The notes under the pieces are model-generated. The model was given only the letters and a program-made list of their open reading frames with translations. It was not told where the DNA came from and made no database searches. From contig NZ_CP007139.1 of the NCBI RefSeq assembly GCF_000724625.1, positions 248,001 through 312,000 on the forward strand: a DNA stretch of 64,000 nt, read 5' to 3'. Positions 29,468 to 34,837 of this stretch are shown here, piece by piece. This stretch comes from Fimbriimonas ginsengisoli Gsoil 348 (lineage in GTDB: Bacteria; Armatimonadota; Fimbriimonadia; Fimbriimonadales; Fimbriimonadaceae). A program made the position numbers and the translations under genes. The first letter of the stretch is position 1. The number at the start of each line of letters is the position of its first letter.

Positions 29468-30535
29468 GTGCTAGGAATTCTCGCAGCCTTTGTGATGCGG
29501 CCGGAAGCGGGTCAGACACGAACTCTGAACGTCTTCGCGGCGGCCTCGCTAAAGGAGTCGTTTACCGAATTGGCCCGAAAGTACGAGGCTGCCCATCCGG
29601 GTTTGAGCATCAGGCTCAGCTTCGCCGGGTCGCAAGCTCTTGCGGCCCAGATCGGCCACGGAGCGCCCGCCGACGTCTTCGCGAGCGCGTCCGCCAAGAA
29701 CCTGGAGAGCGTCTCTTACGACAAATCCAGCTACCGGGTGTTCGTGCTTAACAAGCTGGAGATCGCGGTTCGAAAGGGGCTCCCCGGGATCCGGACCGTC
29801 TCCGATCTCGCCCGAGTCCGAAACCTGGTCGTGGCCGACCCGGCCGTCCCGGTCGGAGGCTATACCGAATCGTTTCTGGCCAAAGCGGGCGCGGCGTATG
29901 GTTCCGGCTGGGAGCAGTCGGTACGGTCGCACATCGTGTCGAGAGAGGCCGATGTAAAGTCGGTACTAGCCAAAGTCCGTCTGGGGGAGGCGGATGCGGG
30001 CATCGTTTACGCCAGCGATGTGAGATCGGCGCGGGGACAGTTGGGAGAGATTGGCATCCCTGGCAACCTTAACGAGACGGCTAAGTATCCCGTCGCCATT
30101 CCATCGTCGGCGGAGAACCGGAACGACGCGAAGCACTTCATCCACTTCATCTTGGATGCCGACGCGCAGAGGGTTCTCGAGCTGAACGGCTTTGTTTCCT
30201 TCTCGCGGCCCGTATCCCGTCTGGCAATCCAGGGGAAGAACTATCCTTTACCGCTTTCGAAGCATTACCGATCCGCACTGATGAAGGCGACCGATGAGAA
30301 GAACCAAACCAAAGCCTATTTCGGAGTGCTCGCGTCCGCGCTGCCGGGCGTCTCGAAGGCAAAGTCGGCAACATTCATTGGGGCCGACGGGTACTGGCAA
30401 ACGGTTTCGGTCGCCGACCTCGTGAAGCACAGAGCGGTGTTGGTCCGGTCCGCCGATGGAAACTACCAACTCGTCGTTCCGGGCCTTAAGCCGAGTACAT
30501 GGGTGAATTGGCTCCGAAGAATCGAGTTTCGATAG
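29468..30535 (+). CDS. modA: Molybdate-binding protein ModA with C-terminal SUOX-like extension
   Basis: A 355-aa protein. The ModA part reads LNVFAAASLKESFTELARKYE, FAGSQALAAQIGHGAPADVFASAS, ADAGIVYASDV, and IHFILDADAQRVLELNGFVSF, covering about residues 18-240 after a short signal sequence. The last ~110 residues are not part of normal ModA. They end TFIGADGYWQTVSVADL ... [24 protein letters not shown], which resembles the closing segment of the sulfite-oxidase (SUOX) Mo-cofactor fold, though the cofactor cysteine of that family is not seen. It overlaps modB by 37 bases. The GTG start was taken because the signal peptide begins there. Confidence 0.85.
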   Translation: MLGILAAFVMRPEAGQTRTLNVFAAASLKESFTELARKYEAAHPGLSIRLSFAGSQALAAQIGHGAPADVFASASAKNLESVSYDKSSYRVFVLNKLEIAVRKGLPGIRTVSDLARVRNLVVADPAVPVGGYTESFLAKAGAAYGSGWEQSVRSHIVSREADVKSVLAKVRLGEADAGIVYASDVRSARGQLGEIGIPGNLNETAKYPVAIPSSAENRNDAKHFIHFILDADAQRVLELNGFVSFSRPVSRLAIQGKNYPLPLSKHYRSALMKATDEKNQTKAYFGVLASALPGVSKAKSATFIGADGYWQTVSVADLVKHRAVLVRSADGNYQLVVPGLKPSTWVNWLRRIEFR

Positions 30536-31326
30536 CGTCCTGGGCATTTACGGGCGGCGCGCTCCTCCTGGGCGCGCCGCTCCTGCTGCTGGTCGTACTC
30601 TCGGTGGCGGCGCTGGTGTTGGGTACCTCTCCCAGCGAGGTGGCGGCCCAGCTTCACGAGGAAACCGCGCGCCAGGCGATCTTGCTAAGCCTCAAAACGA
30701 CGCTCATCAGCCTGGCGCTGGTCGTGGTGTTTGGTACGGGGCTTGCGGTGGCGATCCATCGCGCGCCGCCATGGCTGGCCGGAATCCTCGAAATCATTGT
30801 CACGCTCCCGGCGATCATGCCCCCGTCGGTAGCGGGGATCGCCCTACTCCTCGCGTTCGGTCGCCAGGGTCTGCTCGGCTCGCACTTCGACGCTCTCGGA
30901 ATCCGGATCGCGTTTACGCCGATCGCCGTTGTCATGGCCCAGGCCTTTGTGGCGACCCCGTTTTTCGTCCGAGAATTGGCAAACGGCCTCCAGGCGACCC
31001 ATCCAGCCCTGCTGGAGGCCGCCCGAATCGACGGGGCGGGAAACTTGCGGGCGGCGACGTCGATTCTGCTACCGATCAGCTCCCCTTTCCTCCTCGGCGG
31101 CGCCGCCCTTGCGTGGGCTCGGGCCGTGGGTGAGTTTGGGGCGACGATTCTATTCGCGGGAAACCTGGCGGGGGTCACGCAGACGATGCCGCTGGCGATC
31201 TACCTCGGGTTCGAGACGAACCTGTCGCAAGCAAAAGCGTTGGCGCTTCTCCTTCTCGGCTTCGCGGTTTGCGTGCTGGTGTTGATGAAGGTCGTTTTCC
31301 GGCGCCACCTGGCGCTTGCGCACTGA
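30499..31326 (+). CDS. modB: Molybdate ABC transporter permease ModB
   Basis: A 275-aa permease with five to six membrane segments and the conserved cytoplasmic EAA loop ([22 protein letters not shown]). It imports molybdate delivered by ModA. The start lies inside the end of modA (37-base overlap), so translation is coupled. The expected ATPase gene modC does not follow; a mosaic repeat and icd come next. Either modC is elsewhere or another ATPase serves this permease. Confidence 0.92.
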
Positions 31327-32852: not shown

Positions 32853-32950
32853 CATCGCCCCAAGGGGGCGACATCCTACAGCCCAGGTGCAGCGTAGCGG
32901 AATCCTGGGTAGAGGCCGGCCATCCCTTACAGCCCTGAAGGGGCGGCATC
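32853..32950. repeat. Mosaic hairpin repeat of the 'cagccc...gggcggcat' type
   Basis: Stem units include ATCGCCCCAAGGGGGCGA, a CAGG/CCTG-type pair around AGCCCAGG and CCTGGGTAG, and AGCCCTGAAGGGGCGGCAT. Such units are common between genes in Planctomycetes and Verrucomicrobia. The gap 32787-33023 holds nothing else. Confidence 0.6.
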
Positions 32951-33023: not shown

Positions 33024-34091
33024 ATGTCCCCTTTGATCGAACCTGTGCTTAGCCGAACCGCGATGGAGGACGCCGCCCTCCGGTGGCGCGAGCGGTCGGC
33101 GCAGCGCGAAGCGCGGCTTCGCCTTGTCCGGCAGGGACGGTACATAGAGGCCGAGGGGATAGAGCGGCTCTTGGCGCGAATGGCTTACCAAGGGTTCGAC
33201 TCGGCAAGCCTGAGCGAGTTGACCGACGAAGGGTTTATCTCGCTTCAGAGGGAGACCCTTGCCGCCGATTTCCTGGAGCGAGCTCAACGCTCCTCGAAAG
33301 CGGTTGGGCGGGTCGTCGTCAGCTCTCGGCATGGCGTTACGAAGGTCGGGACCGGGTTCATGATCTCACCGAAATTGATGCTGACGACCAGCGACGTGCT
33401 CCCTTCGGCGGAGGCCGCCGAAGGGGCAATGTTTGAGCTGGGCCTGCCCCATGCCCTGCAACCCGAACGCTACTTTTACGCCAATCACGAGCTCGGATTT
33501 ACGGCCGTTGCGATCGAGGGGGCGTCGTCCCATTGGTGCAAGCTGGCGGAACAAGAGATCGCCACGGCGATCGGCCATCCGGTGAACCTCGTTCACTATC
33601 CCTTGGGAAAGGAGAAAGAGGTCATCGTGCGCAACACGGAGGTGGTCGATCTTCTCTCCGAGGCGGTTCAGTACCGAGGGGTGACCGCGCCCGGATCCTC
33701 GGGCGCGCCGGTGTTTAACGACGAATGGAAGGTGATTGCCATTCAGCGCACCGGCATTCCTCGAACGGATCTCCGAGGGAATTATATGCGGCGGTCCAGC
33801 GGCATTTGGGAGCCGGGCGACGACCCTGCCGACCTGGATTGGATCGCTAACGAAGGGATCGCGGCTTGGACAATCTTGAGCCGCCTGAGAGGCGCCGAGA
33901 ATCACGACCTATTTGCAGAAATGTTCGAGCCTATCGTCGTGACCGAGGAGGTGGAGGAAGAGCCGCCCATCGTGGAGACGCCGGCACCCGCGCCGCCCCC
34001 ACCGGCTCCGGCGAATACCGGAACGACCATTCGGCTGAATATCCCTCTTAAGATCACGGTGGAGATCGACGGAACCATCGGGTCGCTTTAG
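33024..34091 (+). CDS. Trypsin-like serine protease homologue with degenerate catalytic triad
   Basis: A 355-aa protein. A helical N-terminal domain (residues 1-85) is followed by a trypsin-like domain of the type found in actinobacterial multi-domain effectors: VGTGFMISPKLMLTTSDVLPSAE, VNLVHYPLGKEKEVIVRNTEVVDLL (as parts), TAPGSSGAPVFND and VIAIQRTGIPRTDLRGN. The family normally reads NHHV or NNHV where this protein has TSDV, so the catalytic His is Asp124; the family LDFALV is LGFTAV here, so the catalytic Asp is Gly158; only Ser226 remains. A Pro-rich linker and a short beta tail end the protein. A TATAGT element stands 11 bases upstream. It lies two bases before a GNAT gene. Confidence 0.75.
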   Translation: MSPLIEPVLSRTAMEDAALRWRERSAQREARLRLVRQGRYIEAEGIERLLARMAYQGFDSASLSELTDEGFISLQRETLAADFLERAQRSSKAVGRVVVSSRHGVTKVGTGFMISPKLMLTTSDVLPSAEAAEGAMFELGLPHALQPERYFYANHELGFTAVAIEGASSHWCKLAEQEIATAIGHPVNLVHYPLGKEKEVIVRNTEVVDLLSEAVQYRGVTAPGSSGAPVFNDEWKVIAIQRTGIPRTDLRGNYMRRSSGIWEPGDDPADLDWIANEGIAAWTILSRLRGAENHDLFAEMFEPIVVTEEVEEEPPIVETPAPAPPPPAPANTGTTIRLNIPLKITVEIDGTIGSL

Positions 34092-34093
34092 CC

Positions 34094-34837
34094 ATGGCGA
34101 TCGGCATTCCCGAGGCGATCCAAGCGTTTGGGCGAGGCTTTACGTTCACCAGAAGCTTTACCCACCCTTACGAGTTCGTTCAGGTCGGCCCCCTGTGGGT
34201 GATGCGGGACGGCCCCCGAAGACGGGGACCTTATCGCGGTGAGGAGATCCTCGCCCACGGAATCTCCCCCGAGGAGGTCGCGGAGGCAATTCGGGAGTAT
34301 GCGCCGGAGCGGTATGCCGTCTGCGCGATCGAGGGTATGGACACCGACCTAGAGGCGCTGAAGGATCGCTACAAGGAGCTGGGGTTTCGACTCCTGCGCC
34401 GGGAGCCGATGATGGTTCGTCCCCTTCGCGCCGAAGATCAGCTCGCTCGGCATCCTTCGGTAGTGCGGATCAACCACCGGGAGGAGGCCGACCGGGTAGC
34501 GGTGGCGGCCGGCGGAAGGCAGATTCTTCCCTTGCACCTCGGCCTCGACGATTCTCCTTTGCGGCTGTATGCCTGGATGCAAGAGGACGTTCCGGTGGGG
34601 TGGGTGCGCAGCATCCGGTGCGGGGAGGCGGCGTGGGTTTCCAATATGTACGTCCATCCGAACCATCGCCGCAAGGGCATCGCCACTCACCTCCTTTCGG
34701 CGATGTTGTTCGATGATCGCCGGTTGGGAATCGCCAATAGCGTCCTTCTTGCGAGTAATGCCGGCTCGAAGCTGTACCCCAGCCTGGGTTACGAGCAGAT
34801 CGGGCTGCTGCAGCTCTTCGTGCCTAAGAAGAAGTAG
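34094..34837 (+). CDS. GNAT-family N-acetyltransferase
   Basis: A 247-aa protein. The C-terminal half is a GNAT fold with the acetyl-CoA motif VSNMYVHPNHRRKGIATHLLSAML (as parts) and the tail NAGSKLYPSLGYEQIG. The N-terminal half (IPEAIQAFGRGFTFTRSFTHPYEF; LWVMRDGPRRRGPYRGEEI) may be a second, diverged GNAT domain that tests substrate. It starts two bases after the inactive-protease gene, so the two are likely co-expressed. The substrate is unknown. Its stop abuts the stop of the next, opposite-strand gene. Confidence 0.82.
   Translation: MAIGIPEAIQAFGRGFTFTRSFTHPYEFVQVGPLWVMRDGPRRRGPYRGEEILAHGISPEEVAEAIREYAPERYAVCAIEGMDTDLEALKDRYKELGFRLLRREPMMVRPLRAEDQLARHPSVVRINHREEADRVAVAAGGRQILPLHLGLDDSPLRLYAWMQEDVPVGWVRSIRCGEAAWVSNMYVHPNHRRKGIATHLLSAMLFDDRRLGIANSVLLASNAGSKLYPSLGYEQIGLLQLFVPKKK

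Follow-up and report, generated by a model that had tools for sequence, protein, structure and literature searches.

The modA gene at positions 29468-30535 (+ strand) of the window, the stretch of 64,000 nucleotides from Fimbriimonas ginsengisoli Gsoil 348 analysed here, encodes a ModA protein whose C-terminal tail is almost certainly a domain of the sulfite oxidase (SUOX) fold devoid of the molybdenum-ligand cysteine. The description that fits the tail best is that of a minimal, Cys-less, PruR-like domain, after the periplasmic SUOX-fold protein PruR, in which a tryptophan replaces the Mo-ligand cysteine (PMC13259868). Each of the two parts is known; their combination appears to be new, and no report of a ModA-SUOX fusion was found in the papers that we searched. 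The tail is probably not a catalyst but a binding domain for a related small molecule or a partner protein, and its sequence gives no reason to expect an enzyme activity.

According to the window ORF listing, the gene starts with GTG and comprises 355 codons plus a stop, encoding a protein of 355 amino acids. Residues 18-244 (29519-30199, + strand) form an ordinary ModA molybdate-binding domain: PF13531 matches residues 20-242 (6e-44; 150.9 bits for a Pfam cut-off of 25), TIGR01256 matches residues 25-238 (2e-37; 129 bits for an NCBIfam cut-off of 62.5), and the ModA 3r26 can be aligned with residues 20-242. The preceding hydrophobic stretch (residues 1-17, 29468-29518, + strand) is a probable short signal peptide, of which residues 1-10 are modelled with low confidence (pLDDT 42). 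The gene product would thus be an extracytoplasmic molybdate-binding protein, as export and molybdate binding are both predicted from membership of the ModA family. The next gene is modB, as expected for this family. However, an ordinary ModA stops around residue 244, whereas the window protein continues in the same frame for about 106 residues that make up a second domain. These extra residues were already pointed out in the initial annotation, and both stretches that it quoted are found in the tail: ADGY at 306-309 and the last 18 residues, at 338-355. No annotated family of Pfam or NCBIfam matches residues 245-355 above threshold.

Does this tail adopt a SUOX fold? The initial annotation had noted a resemblance to the end of a SUOX domain and had stated that a predicted structure without a SUOX-like fold would refute it. 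We ran AlphaFold2 with the six fusion sequences described below as input rows, both on the whole protein (mean pLDDT 91.3, pTM 0.83) and on the tail alone (mean pLDDT 90.6, pTM 0.83), and the tail model has the SUOX fold. When this model was compared with the PDB using Foldseek, a probability of 1.00 was reached only with SUOX-family enzymes and PruR, the high-probability matches being structures of sulfite oxidase, sulfite dehydrogenase, the Mo domain of nitrate reductase, YedY and PruR. Structural Z-scores (VIA) were 13.0 with chicken sulfite oxidase, 12.8 with PruR 7kom/7kp2 and 12.3 with PruR 7kos/7rkb, and chains outside the SUOX family scored 3.9 at most, except for the integrative model 9a64_A (Z 7.8). 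The alignments with Z of 12-13 span 106-110 of the 110 tail residues, and the resemblance noted earlier therefore extends over the whole tail, not its end alone. In the model, the SUOX fold is complete in a compact form (residues 250-355, 30215-30532, + strand): the tail has 110 residues, against about 135-140 spanned in PruR and about 160 in sulfite oxidase. The pTM of the whole-protein model suggests a defined orientation of the two domains; from this value alone, we infer that the tail may pack on ModA in a defined way.

Profile comparisons point in the same direction. The C-terminal end of PF00174, the Moco domain of sulfite oxidase and YedY-type enzymes, matches the window tail with 12.5 bits (E 0.11) and the tail of genome G017 with 18.4 bits (E 0.0017), both below the gathering score of 24, and a PruR-type homologue itself obtains only 25.2 bits with this family. 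A PDB search with the single tail sequence returned nothing significant, 7kos being among the weak matches, while a profile of the six tails retrieved two PruR-type chains as its best hits (7kos, E 0.015; 7kom, E 0.039). With hhalign, the tail profile aligns to PruR with an E-value of 4e-6 and to the three PF00174 proteins of the window's own genome with an E-value of 6e-5, each as a single comparison. The corresponding scores, 39.5 for PruR and 32.0 for SUOX, were compared with those of 150 column shuffles, the best of which reached 22.7 and 17.6, respectively; the reversed profile did not attain them either. Because the fusion is present in six genomes, the shuffles were beaten in 150 of 150 cases and the structural Z-scores lie at 12-13, the SUOX resemblance is real and above chance. 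The tail also shares with sulfite oxidase and YedY-type domains the C-terminal motif P...W..W.R.I, which aligns without gaps to SoxC (2xts). It differs from these domains by the absence of the Cys ligand and of the GGPxR segment, and by a size of about two thirds.

The three PF00174 proteins of the window's own genome (L001-L003; G000 C1 4504214, 5092718 and 1356226) are canonical, each with the aligned cysteine. This count exceeds that of each of the 11 relatives compared.

The initial annotation had also proposed searching for the same fusion elsewhere. We scanned 101 relatives and, with the tail alone and again with a profile, 291 genomes of the phylum, and found the fusion in five Armatimonadota genomes besides the window's own: four of the same genus (G004, G012, G017 and G019) and one from another genus of the same family (G163). 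All six fusions are encoded by a single open frame with no stop or frame break. We therefore rejected readthrough, frame-shifted neighbour genes and an assembly artefact as explanations, since the fusion recurs across these genomes with tails that are only 19-42% identical to that of the window (45-54% for the ModA core). Two weak matches in the phylum are of another kind: the one in G252 looks like the end of a regular SUOX protein, not like a fusion, and the one in G103 is a single broken frame. When 84,980 species were scanned with sequence patterns, only the fusions of G017 and G163, the two nearest, were recovered; the patterns are strict, and more distant fusions may have been missed. 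No tail homologue was found in plasmids or in PHROGs.

Several near relatives (G032, G005, G050, G035, G060 and G034) possess a ModA without the tail. In G032, the ModA core is 58% identical and ModB 74% identical to those of the window, and the absence of the tail is clean, as it is in G005. Since the tail is repeatedly absent in near relatives, it appears to be dispensable for molybdate import. A maximum-likelihood tree built from the ModA core shows a patchy distribution of the tail: five state changes are needed, and a grouping of all tail-bearers in one clade is rejected (p-AU 4e-4). Across the 15 pairs of the six fusions, which are not independent, tail and core identities are correlated (Pearson 0.74). 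Because of this correlation, the simplest reading is a single origin: most likely, the fusion arose once, in an ancestral member of this Armatimonadota family, and several clean losses followed. Several separate fusions, with repeated gains or swaps, may also account for the history of these six sequences. The patchy tree and the clean absences in G032 and G005 would suit a remnant of an old fusion that is decaying and no longer has any role. We find this improbable, however, as all six tails remain open and keep the same eight residues at identities as low as 19-42%, and the window tail is predicted to fold with high confidence.

These eight residues, G286, D307, Y309, N332, P338, W345, W348 and R350, are the only positions invariant in all six tails. 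What do they tell us about the pocket? In PruR, Tyr104 and Trp160 are among the residues that contact the pterin; a further one, Asn102 (Asp in certain groups), is considered relevant to pterin specificity (PMC13259868). We linked the numbering of 7KOS to these published residues through its sequence. In both hhalign and MAFFT alignments, D307-G-Y309 (30386-30394, + strand), with D and Y invariant, is equivalent to the pterin-contacting N/D102-x-Y104. In the segment W345-V-N-W348 (30500-30511, + strand), where both tryptophans are invariant, W348 falls on W160 of PruR, a correspondence that relies on a one-residue gap. The invariant N332 (30461-30463, + strand) is followed by a deletion: in six of six tails, nine residues are missing between N332 and P338 that correspond to YMTVREKGP in PruR and to the GGPVR region in SUOX, so that the GPx/GGPxR segment is absent. 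The window tail contains no cysteine at all, in agreement with the earlier remark that the Mo ligand is missing, and the other five tails have none at the Mo-ligand place; an equivalent of PruR W70, the Trp that occupies this place, is absent from all six.

PruR (7KOS, 7KOM, 7KP2, 7RKB) thus resembles the tail in its fold, its lack of a Mo-ligand Cys, its N/D-x-Y motif and its C-terminal Trp, as well as in its extracytoplasmic location, which for the ModA tail is presumed. However, PruR is a standalone protein of about 170 residues paired with the diguanylate cyclase/phosphodiesterase DcpA, whereas the tail is fused to ModA; PruR also has Trp70 at the Cys place and a GPL segment, while the tail lacks this Trp and nine residues of the segment. 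The initial annotation had called a molybdate importer with a cofactor-fold domain outside the membrane unexpected. The extracytoplasmic place by itself is no surprise, as PruR proteins, which have a SUOX fold without the Cys, reside in the periplasm (PMC13259868). The term 'cofactor-fold' itself holds for the fold, but should not be taken to mean cofactor binding, given a pocket segment shorter even than that of PruR.

Moco catalysis by the tail is very unlikely because the Mo-ligand Cys, the PruR Trp and the nine-residue pocket segment are all lacking. For the same reasons, the full cofactor is a very unlikely ligand, whereas a smaller pterin could be bound. The fold and the three canonical PF00174 proteins of the host genome could be taken to suggest that the tail holds full Moco, as a carrier or an enzyme mounted on ModA, yet we give this idea hardly any credence: besides the missing Cys and GGPxR-type segment, some 106 residues stand where sulfite oxidase spans about 160. 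Moreover, SUOX-fold enzymes usually receive their Moco in the cytoplasm, while Sec is the normal export route of ModA.

Our favoured explanation, which we put forward tentatively, is that the tail is an accessory domain that would bind a pterin-type ligand and tune molybdate delivery. ModA would have gained a Cys-less PruR-type SUOX domain at its C-terminus, most likely once. A small pterin-type ligand, either a reduced pterin or a metal-free cofactor fragment, would sit in the remaining D-x-Y/W pocket, and the tail, packed on ModA, would alter the closing of ModA on molybdate or its docking on ModB, thereby linking molybdate import to pterin or cofactor state. We infer the ligand class, the packing on ModA and the effect on transport. 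The position of the invariant D, Y and one W on PruR pterin-contact residues supports a pterin ligand. Counting against it, D-x-Y and W also occur in ordinary PF00174 proteins (for example L084, with ADGY and RW), and so may be kept for folding, and the pocket segment (GPL/GGPVR), the Cys and W70 are missing in all six tails. Neither a pterin gene nor a DcpA-type regulator adjoins the window modA gene, and the tail is lost in near relatives. In addition, G163 has the tail, but no PF00174 protein was found in its genome, which makes a function connected with SUOX-family enzymes less likely.

Alternatively, the tail could be a SUOX-derived, ligand-free module that docks on ModB, on an envelope protein or on another ModA, with the conserved D, Y, W and R acting as folding or interface residues. 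We consider this nearly as likely as pterin binding, because the conserved residues occur in ordinary PF00174 proteins and the pocket segment is deleted. Such docking would fit the loss of that segment in six of six tails together with Cys and W70, the faster divergence of the tail than of the ModA core (19-42% as opposed to 45-54% identity to the window protein) and the high pTM, which suggests packing on ModA. On the other hand, pure surface docking does not predict that the few invariant residues align with the pterin-contact loops of PruR, and the 84 kb that separate modA from modB in G017 speak against a strict pairing with ModB through an operon.

A bolder proposal, which we regard as rather unlikely, is that the tail enables ModA itself to sense a pterin or molybdopterin-type compound on the outer side of the membrane and thereby to gate molybdate import by cofactor or pterin status. 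Sensing of pterins outside the cytoplasm would then have a second route, in addition to PruR-DcpA. Molybdate import is known to be controlled at transcription and within the transporter; a binding protein with such a tail would place a possible sensor of the product on the very first import step. Cys-less SUOX-fold (PruR-like) domains, so far standalone partners of c-di-GMP enzymes, are here joined to a transporter, and what they recognise could be examined in a simple binding assay with the ModA fusion.

The modA-tail gene has modB, Iso_dh and an AAA protein as neighbours. The modB permease gene (30499-31326, + strand) starts in another frame and overlaps the end of the tail by 37 nucleotides; its scores are slightly below the cut-offs of TIGR01581 (2e-60; 204 bits against 210.3) and TIGR02141 (8e-52; 175.9 bits against 182.6). 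The locus departs from ordinary ModA loci in having no adjacent modC: none accompanies modAB at 29468-31326 or in the relatives. No protein of the window's own genome exceeds the ModC cut-off (best score 165 bits against 285), and among the ORFs of the neighbourhoods examined none was found to encode an ABC ATPase combining the Walker A motif with the signature motif. The ModB permease may borrow a shared ATPase. In G017 (L042, contig C54), the modA-tail gene (117746-118774) and the molybdate-type permease gene (33706-34299) are on the same contig. No Moco or Tuco riboswitch, nor any other Rfam family, was detected above cut-off near modA. Downstream of the isocitrate dehydrogenase gene, at 32856-32909 on the minus strand, there is a sub-threshold match to the Acido-Lenti-1 RNA (RF01687), with 24.4 bits for a gathering score of 37 and an E-value of 0.026.
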